Shown here one piece after another: positions 30,450 to 40,464 of a stretch of 64,000 nt of DNA. Every line of letters begins with the position of its first letter. Position 1 is the stretch's first letter. The notes beneath the pieces were generated by a model. That model was not told the DNA's origin, did no database searches, and saw nothing but the letters and a program-made list of their open reading frames with translations. The DNA is taken from positions 763,634 to 827,633 of the forward strand of contig LDJB01000001.1 of assembly GCA_001028815.1 (NCBI GenBank), given 5' to 3'. This DNA comes from Peptococcaceae bacterium 1109 (GTDB lineage: Bacteria; Bacillota; Limnochordia; Darwinibacteriales; Darwinibacteriaceae). Both the position numbers and the translations under genes were made by a program.

Positions 30450-31091
30450 GTGCAAGCAATCTTGCAGCGTCTAGAAGAAATGTACCCTAACCCAAAGACC
30501 GCCCTTAACCACGAGACTCCCTTTGAGCTGCTGGTGGCAACCATCCTCTCTGCCCAATGCACCGACGAACGGGTGAACCTCATCACCCCCGGCCTGTTTG
30601 CCCAGTATCCTGATGCCCATGCCCTGGCACAGGCCTCTGAGGAGGATGTGGCTGAACTGATCAAGACCGCGGGGCTGTGGCGGAGCAAAGCCAAGAACTT
30701 GGTGGCCGCTGCTGAGATATTGGTGGACAAGTACGGCGGTGAGCTGCCTCGCACCCGGGAAGAGTTGGAGAAACTCCCAGGGGTGGGGCGGAAAACTGCC
30801 AACGTCATCCTGGCCAACGCCTTTAACATCCCCGCCATCGCGGTAGACACCCATGTATTCCGGGTCGCGAACCGCCTCGGGATCGCCCAAGGCAAGACTC
30901 CTCTTGAGGTAGAAAAGCAGCTTATGGAGGCAATTCCGAAAGAAAAATGGGCAGATGCCCATCATTGGCTGATCTACCATGGCCGACAGGTTTGTCAAGC
31001 CAGGAAGCCAAAGTGCCACATCTGCCCCTTAAGCCCCTATTGTCAATATTACGCTGAAAGTACTACACAATCCCATACCACAGGAAGATAA
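30450..31091 (+). CDS. nth: Endonuclease III
   Basis: A 213-residue DNA glycosylase/AP lyase that removes oxidised pyrimidines. The helix-hairpin-helix is ELEKLPGVGRKTANVIL with the catalytic lysine. The catalytic aspartate is in AIAVDTHVFRVANRLG. The 4Fe-4S cluster ligands are in VCQARKPKCHICPLSPYC (C-x6-C-x2-C-x5-C). The GTG at 30450 follows GGAGG by eight bases; the TTG at 30435 sits over that site. Its last 29 bases overlap the convergent antiporter gene. Confidence 0.95.
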   Translation: MQAILQRLEEMYPNPKTALNHETPFELLVATILSAQCTDERVNLITPGLFAQYPDAHALAQASEEDVAELIKTAGLWRSKAKNLVAAAEILVDKYGGELPRTREELEKLPGVGRKTANVILANAFNIPAIAVDTHVFRVANRLGIAQGKTPLEVEKQLMEAIPKEKWADAHHWLIYHGRQVCQARKPKCHICPLSPYCQYYAESTTQSHTTGR

Positions 31092-32913
31092 CTAGCACCA
31101 CTGCAAGCACCACTGCTGCAGCGCCGGCCCCGTCAATACTTAGAGAGGCTCCTGCAGCTTCTTTTGTGCCTTCCCCTTCTGCCCCGCGCCTTTCCACAAA
31201 TCCCTGAGCAGCTCGGAACACTGGCTTGTAAAACAGATACTCGACACTGAGCCACTTGGGCACCTTCACTCTGTCCCCGAACTTCCACACCAGGATAAGG
31301 ACCGCGGCAGCAATGGCGTAAGAAACTAGGGCGCTTTGCATCTCATGGCCCGACCAGTAGGGCACATGGGTGAGATGGTCCACGTCCCCTGGGTTAAAGC
31401 GGATTTCCCCCACAACGGGCAGCGCCAAGGCATTAACCACTCTCTGGGCTTGGGTCCCGATAAACAGTACCACCGCGGTATACACCGCAAACACCCCTTT
31501 GTGGCGCAGGCTAAGGTCCTGAACCCCATCCCAGCTCTGCTTGGGCTTTGCCACAAAGGTCTTCAGCCACAGTTTTGTGATGTAGGCTGCGGTAAGGCCT
31601 CCTGTAAACACAAAGATCCTCTCCAGCCAGAGCAGCATGGGCCAGCCATGAAGATGATAGGCCTCCAGGATGGCTTCATGGATCAACACTTTGCTCACAT
31701 AACCGTTGAAGCCAGGCACCCCGGTTATGGAAGCTGCCGCCACCAAGAAGAACCCAAATGCCCAGGGCATCTGTTTCCTTAAGCCGCCGAGCTTGTCCAG
31801 GTCCAGTTCACCGGTATGGAGGAACACAGCTCCAGCTAATAGGAACAGGAACGACTTAAAGAAGGCGTGGTTGATGGCATGAAGCCACGCTCCCGCAAGG
31901 GCAGCGGCACCATGAGAGCCGAGAAATGCTCCTGTACCAAGGGCGAAAAGAATGTAGCCCATCTGGCTGATGCTTGAGTAGGCCAGCACCTTCTTCATGG
32001 AAGTGCTCATGATGCCCATTACGGCTCCTGCAAACATGGTCCCCGCGCCGATCCAGATAAACAGATACCCGAAGTTCTGCTGGAACACAAAGAGGGCATC
32101 TCCATCAGGCGCGCTGAGGATTGTGAAAAGAAAGCGGAAAAACCCATAGGCCCCAGTCTTGATCATCAGAGCAGATAGCAGTGCTGAAGCTGGGGCGGGC
32201 GCCACTGGATGGGCCCTGGGAAGCCAGATGTGGAGGGGTATTAACCCAGCCTTTACCCCAAATCCTCCGATGACTAGAGCCAGCACCAGCCAGGGACTGA
32301 TCCCCTTCGTCACCAGCGCTGCAAGCATCGGTTCAAAGCGGGTGTGCCCTGCCGCATATTGCAAGACGAACACCGCTGCCAACAAGATGAGCCCACCAAT
32401 AACGCTCATGTACAGGTAGACGTTTCCCGCTGACATGGCCTCCCGGTCCTGTTCATGGATGACCAGCAGGTATGAGGAAAAGGTCATCAGTTCAAAGAAC
32501 ACAAACAGCGTGAGCAAATCGCCTGCTATAAATACTCCTAGAGTGGTTCCTAAGGTAAAGACCGAATCTGAGAAAAAGCGGGTCTTGCTGTGCTCGTGGG
32601 CCATATACTCTCTGCCGAACACTGTGGACAAGAACCAGACCGCGGCTACTACCACGGAGAAGCAGCCGCTTACAAAGTCCACCTTCCAGTACAGGCCAAC
32701 GCCAAGGCATACAGGGATGCTGCATGACAAGACTTCCCCGCCTCGAACAAGCAAGAACTGCCAGAGAGCCGCAGCCAGGGTTAGAAAAGCGACTGCGCCT
32801 GTTGTAAGGCTCCGAGCCTGATCACCTTTCCGGGCCGCGAAGAACACCGCAAAGGACCCCAACAAGGGAACTGACACCACAAATAGTGGCAGATACTTCA
32901 GGAGATATGCCAT
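31063..32913 (-). CDS. NuoL/MrpA/HyfB-type proton antiporter subunit
   Basis: A 616-residue membrane protein with about 14-16 helices. It carries the residues that mark proton-pumping antiporter-like subunits: a glutamate in FVFFELMTFSSYLLV, lysine and histidine in GGFGVKAGLIPLHIWLPRAH, and MKKVLAYSSISQMGYI. The C-terminal extension (from about residue 530) has a final membrane helix. It is the last of four co-directional genes and begins one base after the preceding stop. No NADH, hydrogenase or quinone module is next to it. Confidence 0.85.
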   Translation of the reverse strand: MAYLLKYLPLFVVSVPLLGSFAVFFAARKGDQARSLTTGAVAFLTLAAALWQFLLVRGGEVLSCSIPVCLGVGLYWKVDFVSGCFSVVVAAVWFLSTVFGREYMAHEHSKTRFFSDSVFTLGTTLGVFIAGDLLTLFVFFELMTFSSYLLVIHEQDREAMSAGNVYLYMSVIGGLILLAAVFVLQYAAGHTRFEPMLAALVTKGISPWLVLALVIGGFGVKAGLIPLHIWLPRAHPVAPAPASALLSALMIKTGAYGFFRFLFTILSAPDGDALFVFQQNFGYLFIWIGAGTMFAGAVMGIMSTSMKKVLAYSSISQMGYILFALGTGAFLGSHGAAALAGAWLHAINHAFFKSFLFLLAGAVFLHTGELDLDKLGGLRKQMPWAFGFFLVAAASITGVPGFNGYVSKVLIHEAILEAYHLHGWPMLLWLERIFVFTGGLTAAYITKLWLKTFVAKPKQSWDGVQDLSLRHKGVFAVYTAVVLFIGTQAQRVVNALALPVVGEIRFNPGDVDHLTHVPYWSGHEMQSALVSYAIAAAVLILVWKFGDRVKVPKWLSVEYLFYKPVFRAAQGFVERRGAEGEGTKEAAGASLSIDGAGAAAVVLAVVLVIFLWYGIV

Positions 32914-32914
32914 C

Positions 32915-34387
32915 TTAAGCCCCTCCTCCTAAGAACAGCCTGTGCACAGCGGGCTGAATATAGCCTACGGCAGCATGGGAGAACAAGCCCAGCAAGAGGC
33001 ATGCGGCAGCCAAAGCTACCATCGAAACCTTCGCCCCCAGGGGCAGTTCCATGTGTTGTTCGATGTTTTCATCTGAGCGGAAAAACGCAGCAACTACGAC
33101 GGGCAGATAATATAGGGCATTCAGGACGCTGCTCACCAAGAGCACCGCCAGAAACACCGGCTGCCCTTCCTCCAATGCGCCTATGCCCAGGTACCATTTG
33201 CTGGCAAACCCGCTGAGAGGCGGAACACCCACCATGGAAAGGGCCCCCACGGTAAAGGCCACCATGGGCAGGGGAAATCTCCTTCCGACTCCGGCGAAGT
33301 CCGCAATCCTGCGCCGACCGGTAAGCTTCATGATGGAACCGGCGGCCAGGACAAGCATACCCTTGACAACGGCATGATTGAGAACATGATAGAGCGTCCC
33401 AAGGAGTGCTGTTTCATTCATGATGCCTAGGCCTAAGAAAATGTACCCTACTTGCGCAACAGTGGAATAGGCCAGCATGCGCTTGATATCCGTTTGCTTG
33501 AGAGCCATGAGAGAACCGCCGAGAATTGCGCCCACAGATAGTGCCAAGAGAATGGGCCGCAAGGGCAGCTGGTGGATAAAGCCCGCTTGCAGCACTTGGA
33601 TCATAAATTTAAAGAGAAAAACGATGTTGACCTTCACCAGCAGGGCAGAAATCACCACGCTGGACGGGGTTGCAGCGGATCCATGGGCATGGGGCAGCCA
33701 GGAATGAAGCGGAAACAGCGCCGCTTTTACCGCGATGCCCACAAACACCAAGGCAATCCCGGCCATGGTTGCCAAGGAGTGGCCGCTCACCGCTTGTGGC
33801 AGCGTTTGGGCAAGCACAGCCAGGTTGAAACTGCCTGTGCTCATGTAAAGGCCTGCCAAACCCATAATCAGCATAGCTGAGCCCAGCATGCTCATGAGCA
33901 AATACCTGAGGGCCGCTTCCAGCGCCGGCTTGTCCCCTTTAGCGGCGACCAGCGCCCCAGCACATACAGCCACGACTTCCAAGAAGAGGTACATGGTGAA
34001 GAGGTCCTGGGACAGAGTGACTCCCATTAGGGCTGCAAGCAATATGAGGCATACGCCATAATAATGGGGCACAACCTTTGATCTGATCTCATGATCGATC
34101 AAGCCCTGGGCAAACAGCATAATCACCACAAACAGCCCAGAGAACACCAAGAGCAGCAGTGCGGTCATCCGATCCGCGGAAAGGGGAATACTCCCCACTT
34201 GGTACATGAGGGCGTCAGTGCGTGTTACTAGGCCAGCCACGCGAATTGCGAGGACGAAGGCTCCTGCAGTGATTCCCAGGGAAAACGTTCCCAGGGGCCA
34301 GCCTTCCCTTCTGCCCATGAAAAAGGCCGCGAGCCCGCCCACGAAAGGCAGCAGAATGACCGCAGGAAGAATTAGGGATGTAGTCAT
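32915..34387 (-). CDS. MrpD/NuoN-type antiporter subunit
   Basis: A 490-residue membrane protein of the same antiporter family as its neighbour. Key residues are the glutamate in MYLFLEVVAVCAGALV, lysine and histidine in FVGIAVKAALFPLHSWLPHA, and IKRMLAYSTVAQVGYI. It most resembles MrpD and the MbhH-type subunits. The ATG at 34387 follows AAGGAG and overlaps the preceding gene by four bases. The longer frame to 34645 overlaps that gene in another phase and is spurious. Confidence 0.85.
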   Translation of the reverse strand: MTTSLILPAVILLPFVGGLAAFFMGRREGWPLGTFSLGITAGAFVLAIRVAGLVTRTDALMYQVGSIPLSADRMTALLLLVFSGLFVVIMLFAQGLIDHEIRSKVVPHYYGVCLILLAALMGVTLSQDLFTMYLFLEVVAVCAGALVAAKGDKPALEAALRYLLMSMLGSAMLIMGLAGLYMSTGSFNLAVLAQTLPQAVSGHSLATMAGIALVFVGIAVKAALFPLHSWLPHAHGSAATPSSVVISALLVKVNIVFLFKFMIQVLQAGFIHQLPLRPILLALSVGAILGGSLMALKQTDIKRMLAYSTVAQVGYIFLGLGIMNETALLGTLYHVLNHAVVKGMLVLAAGSIMKLTGRRRIADFAGVGRRFPLPMVAFTVGALSMVGVPPLSGFASKWYLGIGALEEGQPVFLAVLLVSSVLNALYYLPVVVAAFFRSDENIEQHMELPLGAKVSMVALAAACLLLGLFSHAAVGYIQPAVHRLFLGGGA

Positions 34388-34695
34388 TGGTCCATTCTCC
34401 TTAGCCGCTGGATTTCGTCGAGTTCGGAAGTGCCGTAAAAGCCCTTCAGCTGCTGAACCAAAACCAAAGCGAGAGCGATTACCGCTCCAGTTGCAATAAT
34501 TGCTGTGAGAGCGAGCGTTACGGGATAAGCTACGCCATGTCCCTTTGCGAAGCTGGCTGCAAGGAGCATTAGCAGGCTTGACCCTTGCATCACGCCTAAC
34601 CCGGCGATTTTCCTCACCAAGCTGGGCTGGCTGAGGACGATCCAAAACCCGATGAGAAACAGGATTGTGATAAAGGTATAGAACAAGTTACTCAT
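34384..34695 (-). CDS. MrpC/NuoK-type antiporter subunit
   Basis: A 103-residue protein with three membrane helices (FYTFITILFLIGFWIVLSQ; GLGVMQGSSLLMLLAASF; LTALIATGAV-like region ALTAIIATGAVIALALVLV). The helix pattern and length match MrpC, MbhG and NuoK. It overlaps its neighbours by four to eight bases on both sides, so it belongs to a tightly coupled operon. Confidence 0.82.
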   Translation of the reverse strand: MSNLFYTFITILFLIGFWIVLSQPSLVRKIAGLGVMQGSSLLMLLAASFAKGHGVAYPVTLALTAIIATGAVIALALVLVQQLKGFYGTSELDEIQRLRRMDQ

Positions 34696-34930
34696 GGTGC
34701 CCCTCTTCTCCCTGCTGTGTGTTTTTCACCAAACCTACTCCAATTGCAGCGGCAGCGCCTACAGCCAGCGCGCCAAGGCCATCCAGCCAGCGAAGGCCAA
34801 CTCCCGCTTCTGCCCTGCTTTCGACAGGGAGCAAGCTTGCCAGATCACCAAGGGCCGGTAGGTACTGGGCCGCGCTCACAAGGAGTACGCCCAGGACAAT
34901 GAGAATAATCACTTTCACAAGGTTGCTCAC
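34688..34930 (-). CDS. Small MbhE-like membrane subunit
   Basis: An 80-residue protein with two membrane helices (VKVIILIVLGVLLVSAAQYL and GLGALAVGAAAAIGVGLV). Between them lies LPALGDLASLLPVES; the short P-x-x-GD segment and the LDGLGALAVGAAAAIG helix recall MbhE-type subunits of membrane-bound hydrogenases and Mrp antiporters, although it is shorter. The GTG at 34930 follows GGGGGA. It is the first gene of the unit and is preceded by a structured leader. Confidence 0.6.
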   Translation of the reverse strand: MSNLVKVIILIVLGVLLVSAAQYLPALGDLASLLPVESRAEAGVGLRWLDGLGALAVGAAAAIGVGLVKNTQQGEEGHHE

Positions 34931-34954
34931 GCTTTCATCCCCCAGTCTCACACT

Positions 34955-35057
34955 AAAAAGGACCATGAGCAGGCATTCCTGTTCCAGGGCCTTGCATCAC
35001 AATCCTTGCTGAACACGCAAATGGAGGCCGTGAGAACCTCGACGGATCTCGGCCTCC
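34955..35057 (-). promoter_or_regulatory. Structured leader with a terminator-like hairpin
   Basis: The transcript of the antiporter operon should start near 35057. It first forms a hairpin at 35057-35023 (GGAGGCC with GGCCTCC, then GAGA with TCTC, loop GTCGA). A second, long hairpin spans 35007-34958 (AAGGATTGTGA with TCATGGTCCTT, 11 pairs with three wobbles, an inner GCA(A)GGC/GCCTGC and CCTG/CAGG stem) and ends in TTTTT at 34959-34955. Only 24 bases then remain before the start codon. This has the form of a transcription attenuator. Confidence 0.6.
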
Positions 35058-35064
35058 GCTTCAT

Positions 35065-35093
35065 ATTGTAAGAAAATTAACGCATTCTGTCAA
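35065..35093 (-). promoter_or_regulatory. Strong SigA-type promoter of the antiporter operon
   Basis: On the minus strand: TTGACA at 35093-35088, 17-base spacer, TACAAT at 35070-35065. It begins four bases after the spoVD stop codon. Confidence 0.85.
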
Positions 35094-35096
35094 GGC

Positions 35097-37031
35097 TTAG
35101 ACACCGAAGGGCTCGGGCCAGTCAGTGGCCGCAGGAAGGTAATCAGTGTCGGTGAAAACAAAAACTTCCGAGTCCCGGTTTGCCTTATCCCCTCCTGCTG
35201 GCGCCTGGCCCACAACCCGCTCGCCCTCGCCGATGAGCTCTACTACAAACTGAGCTTCCTGAAGGGCCTTGCGGGCCTCTGCCACAGTGAGCCCAACCAC
35301 ATCGGGCACAGTCACTTGGGGATAGCCGCTTTCCGCCAGCGCTTGCCGTTCCACACCCAGGAAGGGCATCACCTGCTGGGTGAGGCGGCTGAACACCGGT
35401 GCCGCGATAATCCCTCCGAAGAAGGCCCCCTGCGGTTCCCACAGGACCAGTAGTGCTGCCATCTGCGGGTCGTGCACTGGGGCAAAGCCTGCAAAAGAAG
35501 TCACAGTCTTAGAATGGGAGTAACGGCCGTTTTCCACCACCTGGGCTGTGCCTGTCTTGCCCGCCACAAAGTAGCCAGGGGCCTCTGCCCGCTTGGCCGA
35601 ACCACGGGTTATCACTCGCCGCAGGGCTTCCTTAACGATCTCCGCTGTAGCAGAACTGATTACCCGGCGTTGTGGTGGGACTTCGGGCCCGATGGTTCCC
35701 TCGGGGGTGACAATCTCCCGTACATAGTGTGGTACGGAGTAAATCCCATCATTGGCAATGGCACCGAAGGCGGCCAAGAGCTGTAAGGGCGTCATGGTCA
35801 GCCCCTGGCCAAAGCCTATGTTTGCCCACGTAACCAAGGGCACTTTGCTTGACGGAGCGTGGACAGTGCCAGGAGCTTCTCCTGGGAAGTCCACTCCCAT
35901 CTTTGAACCAAAGTTGAACTCCAGGAGGTTGGGGTAAAATCTCTCCCCCCCCAAATCCATTCCCAGCTTCGCGTAAAAAGGGTTGCACGAGTTTTGCAGT
36001 GTTTCAAAGAAGGACTGGGGCCCATGCCCTCCCCTGTGCCAACAGCGGATCCTCCAGCCCGAAACGGTGATGTAACCTGGGTCAAAAAAGCCCGTGTTGA
36101 CTGTGGCTACTCCCTCCTCCAGCGCAACGGCCATAGTTACCGCCTTAAAGGTGGACCCTGGCTCATAGGTATCTGTCACTGCGATATTTCGGCGGTTCGC
36201 CACTGGGTAAGCGCTGAAGTTTTCAATATCAAAAGTGGGGTAGATGGCATTAGCCAGGATTTCACCGGTCTTTGGATCAGTGATCACTATCAGCCCCAGG
36301 CGGGATCCAGTCTCTCGCGTAGCCCGCTCCACTTCCCGCTGGGCTACTTGCTGGATGTAGTAGTCAATGGTGAGCACCAAATCGGCCCCCGGGCTCCCTG
36401 GAACGTAACCCCTGATGCCATCGGGAATGGCCTTGCCCACAGCATCTCGTTCAAACACAGCCTGCCCCGGTGTCCCTCTCAGGATACTGTCATAGTAGAG
36501 CTCGATGCCCTCGAGGCCCTGGTTATCCACACCTACGAAACCCAACACTTGTGGGGCCACAGAGCCGTAAGGATATACCCGCTCTGAACTGTCCACTACT
36601 CCCACGCCCGGGAGATTGGCCCGGATCACCGCTTCCGTCTCCTCCAAGGAGACTTTCTTTTTGATCCACTCGCTGGCGGTGCGTTTACTTAGGCGTGCCA
36701 AAACTGCATCGTAATCAAGGTCTAGGATGCCCGCTAAGACGCGGGCGGTGTGCTCTTTGTTCTCCACTTCCGCGGGGACGGCATAGACTGAGGTGGCATT
36801 AACGCTCACCGCCAAGGGGATGCCGTTCCGGTCGTAGATCGTCCCTCGCCGCCCTTCCACGGGAATGCGCTGGATACGCTGCTCTACCGCTTTTGCTTGG
36901 AAGAACTGGTTCCGGGCGATCTGGAGGTAAGCAAGGCGTCCCACTAGCAGTAAAGTAAAGAGCATCACCCCGAAGAGCATAAGCATAACCCGCTGCTGCA
37001 CCAGGACCGTTGAGACTCCTTTGCGCCGCAA
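35097..37031 (-). CDS. spoVD: Penicillin-binding protein SpoVD/FtsI type
   Basis: A 644-residue class B transpeptidase: an N-terminal membrane anchor (VMLMLFGVMLFTLLLVGRL), a dimerisation domain, a transpeptidase domain with the triad motifs PGSTFK, NSCNP and GKTGTAQ, and one C-terminal PASTA domain (VTVPDVVGLTVAEARKALQE). A single PASTA domain is typical of SpoVD, needed for spore cortex; the vegetative Pbp2b/FtsI cannot be excluded from sequence alone. It follows dacF directly and is not in a mra/mur cluster, which favours the sporulation role. It starts with TTG at 37031, two bases after the dacF stop. Confidence 0.82.
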   Translation of the reverse strand: MRRKGVSTVLVQQRVMLMLFGVMLFTLLLVGRLAYLQIARNQFFQAKAVEQRIQRIPVEGRRGTIYDRNGIPLAVSVNATSVYAVPAEVENKEHTARVLAGILDLDYDAVLARLSKRTASEWIKKKVSLEETEAVIRANLPGVGVVDSSERVYPYGSVAPQVLGFVGVDNQGLEGIELYYDSILRGTPGQAVFERDAVGKAIPDGIRGYVPGSPGADLVLTIDYYIQQVAQREVERATRETGSRLGLIVITDPKTGEILANAIYPTFDIENFSAYPVANRRNIAVTDTYEPGSTFKAVTMAVALEEGVATVNTGFFDPGYITVSGWRIRCWHRGGHGPQSFFETLQNSCNPFYAKLGMDLGGERFYPNLLEFNFGSKMGVDFPGEAPGTVHAPSSKVPLVTWANIGFGQGLTMTPLQLLAAFGAIANDGIYSVPHYVREIVTPEGTIGPEVPPQRRVISSATAEIVKEALRRVITRGSAKRAEAPGYFVAGKTGTAQVVENGRYSHSKTVTSFAGFAPVHDPQMAALLVLWEPQGAFFGGIIAAPVFSRLTQQVMPFLGVERQALAESGYPQVTVPDVVGLTVAEARKALQEAQFVVELIGEGERVVGQAPAGGDKANRDSEVFVFTDTDYLPAATDWPEPFGV

Positions 37032-39313: not shown

Positions 39314-40464
39314 ACTGGGGCAGTTGGATCGAGGTTGACCTGGACGCCCTCGCACACAACTTCCGGGAAATCCAGGCACAAACTGGGGCCAGCGTGTGCC
39401 CTGTGGTAAAAGGGGATGCCTACGGGCACGGTGCTCCAATGGTGGTGCGCCATTTGGCCAAGTACGGAGCACAGTGTTTTGCCGTAGGCGATGTGGAAGA
39501 AGCGCTGACGGTACGAGCCCATTCACAGGCACCTCTGCTGCTCCTTACCCCGCCCCTTCCAGAACAGGTTCCGGAGGTTATCAAGTACCGTTTGATCCCA
39601 ACGGTGGTAAGTGCCGAGCTAGCCGAGACTCTAGCTGGCGCCGCTGCGGCTCGGCGGCTTCGGTTACCGGTGCACCTCAAGGTGGACACAGGCTTGGGCC
39701 GCCTTGGGGTCCTGCCCAAGGATGCCCTTCCCTTAGCCAAGCTCATCGCAGGGTTCCCCAGCCTGAAACTGGCTGGCCTCTACACCCATTTCGCTGACGG
39801 GACAAACCGGGCCAGGACCGAACGGCAGCTTAAGGAGCTGCTCCAGATCAGAGATCTCTTATCCCGGGAGGGCATCACCAATGTGATCTGGCACGCGGCA
39901 AACAGCCCCGGCTTCTGCCTTGGCCCCCACACCCATTTGGACATGGTCCGCATTGGCACTCTCCTGTACGGCCAGGGCTACTCAGGCTCCCGCATGGAGC
40001 TCAAAGATACCTGGAAGCTTTACGCGCGGGTCATTGCGGTGAAGGAAATTCCAGCTGGGAGCTTGATTGGCTATGGCGGGACCTATCGGGCTCCAGAGAA
40101 TATGGTTATTGGGGTTATTCCAGTGGGGTATTCCCACGGCCTTCAGCTCGAGCCTGAGTCCACCGTAGGAGTGCAGTTCCGCCGGGCCCTCCGCCGCCTG
40201 GCCAGGCCCAGCCAAGACTGTGCCTTCCTTGGAGAACAGCCTCTCCCTATCGTAGGCAAGGTAGGCATGAACCTAACCTGCCTGGACCTACGGGGCGCGG
40301 CAAACCCCCGCCCCGGTTTGGTGGTGCGACTCCATGCCAGGCGAGCCACAATCAGCCGGGGGATCGCTAAAGCTTACATCACAAGGGGACGGGTGATCGC
40401 GTATTGGCGCGACGGGCGTTTCTTCCTACCGGCGTTTGACAGAGGAACCAGGTCTTATGTATGA
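39310..40464 (+). CDS. alr: Alanine racemase
   Basis: A 384-residue PLP enzyme that converts L-alanine to D-alanine for cell wall synthesis. The PLP lysine is K34 in CPVVKGDAYGHGA, the barrel ends with the phosphate-binding ANSPGF-like region, and the C-terminal domain holds the catalytic tyrosine in IPVGYSHGL. A KVGMNLTCLDL segment corresponds to the usual RVSMDQ region; the loss of the usual aspartate there is a minor divergence. Its ATG overlaps the upstream TGA (ATGA). The longer frame from 39271 is an artefact. Confidence 0.93.
   Translation: MNWGSWIEVDLDALAHNFREIQAQTGASVCPVVKGDAYGHGAPMVVRHLAKYGAQCFAVGDVEEALTVRAHSQAPLLLLTPPLPEQVPEVIKYRLIPTVVSAELAETLAGAAAARRLRLPVHLKVDTGLGRLGVLPKDALPLAKLIAGFPSLKLAGLYTHFADGTNRARTERQLKELLQIRDLLSREGITNVIWHAANSPGFCLGPHTHLDMVRIGTLLYGQGYSGSRMELKDTWKLYARVIAVKEIPAGSLIGYGGTYRAPENMVIGVIPVGYSHGLQLEPESTVGVQFRRALRRLARPSQDCAFLGEQPLPIVGKVGMNLTCLDLRGAANPRPGLVVRLHARRATISRGIAKAYITRGRVIAYWRDGRFFLPAFDRGTRSYV

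Follow-up and report, generated by a model that had tools for sequence, protein, structure and literature searches.

Na+-I riboswitches (the DUF1646 motif) provide the precedent for a terminator-type leader that controls cation-transport genes (PMC9337991), and the Li+-I, Li+-II and Na+-II riboswitches (the nhaA motifs) likewise lead genes for monovalent cation transporters (PMC9646797). Interference of ribosomes with intrinsic terminators is established as well (PMC4824070, PMC5021804). A literature search found no report of attenuation at an Mrp operon. In the 64-kb stretch of DNA analysed here, termed 'the window', a set of Mrp/complex-I-like genes is preceded by a leader that resembles these systems in part. 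Like the Na+-I class, it would be a leader RNA with a terminator-type expression platform and cation-transport genes downstream; unlike that class, it has no Rfam match, and its predicted folds contain no mutual exclusion of aptamer and terminator. With the nhaA motifs it shares a place ahead of apparent monovalent cation transporter genes; it matches none of them, however, and its genes are Mrp/complex-I-like rather than nhaA. An earlier reading of this DNA, made from the sequence alone (the 'sequence-only reading'), had recognized no known riboswitch class here and had named Na+-I (DUF1646), Li+ (nhaA) and c-di-AMP leaders as natural comparisons. The first statement was borne out by Rfam, which returned no match at the gathering score, nor at E<=10 in 34800-35200. 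The comparisons were not, for none of the covariance models for Na+-I, Li+-I/II, ydaO (c-di-AMP) and the other Rfam riboswitches matches the leader. In their setting, and possibly in their output, the Na+-I and Li+ riboswitches are similar to it; in sequence they are not.

Layout of the promoter, the leader and the flanking genes

All of the parts lie on the minus strand, in the 5' to 3' order promoter, hairpin 1, linker, hairpin 2 with TTTTT, and first start codon. The upstream gene (35097-37031) encodes, by its domain matches, a SpoVD/PBP2-like transpeptidase with a PASTA domain. Directly 3' of its stop codon is a near-consensus sigma-A/70-type promoter, TTGACA-17-TACAAT (35093-35065), the best match within 7.5 kb and one of only two sites in the window, on both strands, that match at 11 of 12 positions; windows simulated with matching dinucleotide composition contain none or one. 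The other such site, TTGACA-18-TATGAT at 40436 on the plus strand, is near the end of an alanine-racemase-like ORF. No terminator is present in the window sequence between the spoVD-like stop codon and the promoter, and hairpin 2 is the only visible end for spoVD-like transcripts.

The first gene downstream (34688-34930, with a GTG start at 34930) encodes an 80-aa protein, likely of the membrane, that belongs to no Pfam family and has a homologue (49% identical) only in the genome of the sister species. It is followed by genes which Pfam and NCBIfam assign to a MnhC/NuoK-like subunit (Oxidored_q2; 34384-34695), a MnhD/NuoM-like subunit (Proton_antipo_M; 32915-34387) and a HyfB/NuoL-like subunit (Proton_antipo_M; 31063-32913). 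The sequence-only reading had called this an antiporter operon. The Mrp/complex-I-like set is only partial, however, and a role in transport or antiport is something we infer.

If transcription starts at approximately 35057, the leader is 127 nt long; its predicted fold as a whole has a free energy of -51.4 kcal/mol (z -2.94). Each hairpin was scored against 200 shuffles, none of which equalled it. Hairpin 1 (35057-35023; -22.7 kcal/mol, z -4.96) lies where the transcript is expected to begin and comprises a 7-bp outer stem (GGAGGCC/GGCCTCC), a bulge, an inner stem (GAGA.CC/GG.TCTC) and the loop GTCGA; no U-tract follows it in the window. Hairpin 2 (35007-34958; -23.5 kcal/mol, z -3.49) resembles a terminator, with arms AAGGATTGTGATGC and CCTGCTCATGGTCCTT flanking a variable loop. 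It closes with a TTTTT run (34959-34955) that ends 24 nt before the GTG, and it ranks second in stability among the hairpins that abut the window's 87 runs of at least five T. In its near-perfect promoter, in a leader of about 127 bases that opens with a two-part hairpin, and in the 24-base gap, the sequence-only reading described the locus correctly. It was right, too, that read-through is obligatory: hairpin 2 stands between the promoter and the genes, so transcripts from this promoter must pass it. The promoter upstream, the stable hairpin with its U-tract, and the position of both before the start codon are the arrangement looked for in an intrinsic-terminator attenuator.

As to hairpin 2 itself, the 11 outer pairs that had been claimed are present, but the outermost of them join AA to the initial U's of the run, and as a terminator the structure is better described as a GGA...UCC stem with UUUUUAG behind it. 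Many of its pairs are A-U or G-U and its tract contains only five U, which speaks against attenuation, since the other terminators in the window are compact and G+C-rich. Folding of successively longer prefixes predicts that hairpin 1 is the first to form and then persists. The linker (35022-35008) and the beginning of hairpin 2 can pair into a weak hairpin (TTTGC/GCAAG, or TTTGCGT with ATGCAAG; approximately -3 to -5 kcal/mol), a pairing with the 5' arm worth at most about -5 kcal/mol over which hairpin 2, at about -25 kcal/mol, prevails. This weak alternative is the sole one in the predicted folds, which contain no strong competing antiterminator and no alternative pairing of hairpins 1 and 2 with each other.

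An ORF running through the whole leader (MKRRPRS...) was considered and rejected: its ATG precedes the expected +1, and a relative from another genus (G005, below) has an in-frame stop. A shorter candidate leader ORF of 14 codons (34997-34953; MQGPGTGMPAHGPF, then a stop codon) has its ATG in the 5' arm of hairpin 2, where AAGGA precedes it at a distance of 5 nt.

Conservation and distribution

Two relatives carry parts of the leader: the sister species of the window genome (here, G001) and a member of another genus of the same family (G005); the window genome itself is G000. In G001, the promoter and hairpin 1 region, from the end of spoVD onward, is 92% identical over 82 nt, and the promoter is near-identical. 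Hairpin 1 retains every one of its 13 pairs; the differences between G000 and G001 are confined to the loop and the bulge, with one base gained in each. Hairpin 2 is absent from G001, where GTTTTTG follows directly after hairpin 1 and is itself followed by an extra small gene. This gene (L036:3332-3565), which separates the leader from the gene for the 80-aa protein's homologue, encodes a membrane-protein-like product of 77 aa with no significant Pfam family.

In G005, hairpin 2 sits before the mnhD-like gene and ends in TTTTTT. The contig begins 17 nt ahead of it, and the contig that carries spoVD terminates within TTGACAGGG, where the promoter would lie, so the stretch before hairpin 2 falls in an assembly gap; with that limit, hairpins 1 and 2 occur together only in the window genome. 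Between G000 and G005, the arms of hairpin 2 are identical at 27 of 27 nt, and the loop has diverged while keeping the same length. The neighbouring genes are much less similar (spoVD 70.5% identical, mnhD 58.6%), and when the two-arm template was slid across them, no placement scored 27/27; the arms are therefore under constraint. By sequence, each leader appears to have a single terminator-like hairpin after its promoter: hairpin 2 in G000 and G005, and hairpin 1 with a U-tract in G001.

The outer helix of hairpin 2 is fully paired in both G000 and G005. Its two changes, G-C to G-U and A-U to G-U, are compatible with pairing but one-sided, and strict covariation is therefore absent. Covariation in homologous leaders had been proposed as a check on the sequence-only reading, and it gave no support: with two sequences per hairpin, neither hairpin displays a two-sided compensatory change. 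As the evidence stands, the leader does not qualify as a new riboswitch class: covariation across diverse homologues is lacking, there being two sequences per hairpin and no more homologues in the genomes searched.

The order to which the window genome belongs is small and was represented here by 37 genomes. A search for the exact two-arm pattern in approximately 85,000 GTDB species returned G005 (L078, JAAYMS010000181.1, 'Bacillota bacterium') and two other matches, judged to be chance, which lie in coding-looking sequence and have no U-tract. The same pattern gave two matches, both chance-looking, in 2.9 million viral contigs. Covariance models of hairpin 2 (R1) and hairpin 1 (R2) found no further homologues in 73 genomes of the class, nor did R1 in 398 genomes of the phylum; two weak matches beyond the known copies were at chance level. 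As far as can be seen, the leader element is restricted to this clade.

Other relatives have a different element at this place. In 13 of 19 other family members (G002, G003, G004, G006, G008, G009, G010, G012, G014, G016, G018, G021 and G022; alignment A1), the spoVD-like gene is followed directly by AGGRRAW-N13-16-GAAT, which fits the sigma-H consensus RNAGGAWWW / RNNGAATWW (PMC8510167). The motif is rare, with three matches on both strands of the 64-kb window; in G002 and G012 it lies approximately 40-45 nt before the first antiporter-like gene. Gene order in G002 is that of the window: spoVD, two antiporter-like genes and a convergent nth. No sigma-H-like element is present at the locus in G000 or G001, and the window's clade seems to have swapped the sigma-H-like promoter for a sigma-A-like one and to have gained a terminator-like leader. 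Relatives appear to rely on a promoter of sigma-H-like (sporulation-transition) type for the syntenic genes; if the leader works as an attenuator, a shift in the logic of control can be traced here at a single locus.

What the leader might do

We favour, with moderate confidence, a clade-specific transcription attenuator that would also end the upstream spoVD-like transcript. RNA polymerase would start at the promoter (35093-35065), hairpin 1 would form right at the start of the RNA, and hairpin 2, together with its U-tract (35007-34955), would then act like an intrinsic terminator, at which some polymerases would halt while the remainder continue into the MnhC/MnhD/NuoL-like genes. Transcripts arriving from the spoVD-like gene would be terminated there also. 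The most economical control would be occupation of the 5' arm, either by a ribosome (at AAGGA-N5-ATG) or by an RNA-binding factor. The promoter-like sequence, the order of the parts, their stability and the retention of the terminator arms by another genus are all observed. It also favours this reading that G001 retains a terminator-like hairpin behind the promoter although the one used differs. From these, we infer that termination takes place in the cell and that the fraction of polymerases reading through is regulated. The hairpin probably works as a valve, restricting transcription of the ion-pump genes, and if the leader is an attenuator, a small clade controls a membrane ion-transport operon through premature termination. 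The leader is real, constrained and narrowly distributed; its regulatory role is putative. The earlier proposal of attenuation by an ion, a metabolite or a protein is supported by the placement of the hairpin and the constraint on all 27 arm positions. Sensing has so far gained no support: there is no two-sided change, and the competing fold reaches about -5 against -25 kcal/mol.

Transcripts of the upstream spoVD-like gene must end here as well, so hairpin 2 could be a plain terminator of that gene that happens to follow the next gene's promoter, with constant, unregulated read-through. The spoVD-like stop codon directly before the promoter, with no other terminator between, agrees with this, and a single terminator-like hairpin per genome would be enough. 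We consider it somewhat unlikely, however: an insulator is expected upstream of the next gene's promoter, not downstream, and a plain terminator would conserve pairing rather than sequence, yet every arm nucleotide is kept, three wobble pairs included.

It is rather unlikely, though conceivable from the sequence, that the leader represents a cis-regulatory RNA of narrow distribution and of a kind not described before, whose terminator arm would itself be a sequence-specific recognition site or a ribosome-entry site gating the Mrp/complex-I-like ion-transport operon. A ribosome-gated attenuator, in which a ribosome initiating at AAGGA-N5-ATG in the 5' arm would block the terminator and expression would track translation capacity, is doubtful, whether it is taken as one form of general attenuation or as standing beside it. 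In both genomes that carry hairpin 2, the 5' arm AAGGATTGTGATG can be read as SD-N5-ATG for a short ORF, of 14 codons in G000, ending at the T run, and 29 codons in G005, overlapping the mnhD-like start. The predicted pairing of this SD with the anti-SD is worth -6.6 and -7.0 kcal/mol in the two, and blocking the 5' arm removes hairpin 2 from the predicted folds. Against this, many terminators can be expected to contain AAGGA opposite TCCTT, and the spacing from SD to ATG is short. The loop codons have changed between G000 and G005 at all three codon positions (5, 3 and 4 changes at positions 1, 2 and 3), and the leader peptide is not conserved, so that initiation itself would be, at most, what counts. 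The SD-ATG within a terminator arm recalls ribosome-mediated attenuators with leader ORFs; unlike those, this ORF has neither a conserved peptide nor a run of regulatory codons. In both genomes the 3' arm of hairpin 2 also contains an ATG that shares the reading frame of the downstream gene (MVLF..., window 34966-34931; MVFF..., L037:59-103); N-terminally extended products from it are formally possible, and starts with better SDs are present downstream.

That hairpin 1 is the sensor and hairpin 2 the expression platform of an undescribed riboswitch or RNA thermometer strikes us as very unlikely. The order of the parts would suit it, as would the position of hairpin 1 at the start of the transcript, its conservation in G001 and the lack of an Rfam match; but the two hairpins share no alternative pairing in predicted folds, there is no covariation, and both occur together only in the window genome, the G005 upstream stretch being in the assembly gap. 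Least probable of all is a DNA operator, in which the inverted repeat at +1 (35023-35033/35047-35057) would bind a repressor and the RNA fold would be incidental: the position is classical for an operator, but the loop and bulge insertions between G000 and G001 would shift the half-sites while being harmless to an RNA hairpin, and hairpin 2 is left unexplained.

Two protein-binding sites were also considered. The ribonucleic antiterminator (RAT) of BglG/LicT begins GGATTGT, as does the 5' arm of hairpin 2; the 3' half differs, and the candidate was rejected since the genome encodes no CAT_RBD protein, in a search that was positive in four control genomes. The inner part of hairpin 1, GATCCGTCGAGGTT, resembles the PyrR binding loop consensus (RF00515). 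It was rejected as a PyrR site because no PyrR RNA match is found here, a conserved loop G is missing and the operon is not a pyr operon. The genome's only PyrR match, at G000:C1:416285, is below the gathering score (E 3.1e-5) and has the loop GGTCCCGTGAGGCT; this PyrR-type leader (L076:1501-1597, corresponding to G000:C1:416285-416381) consists of a hairpin and a T run before a pyrR-like reading frame.
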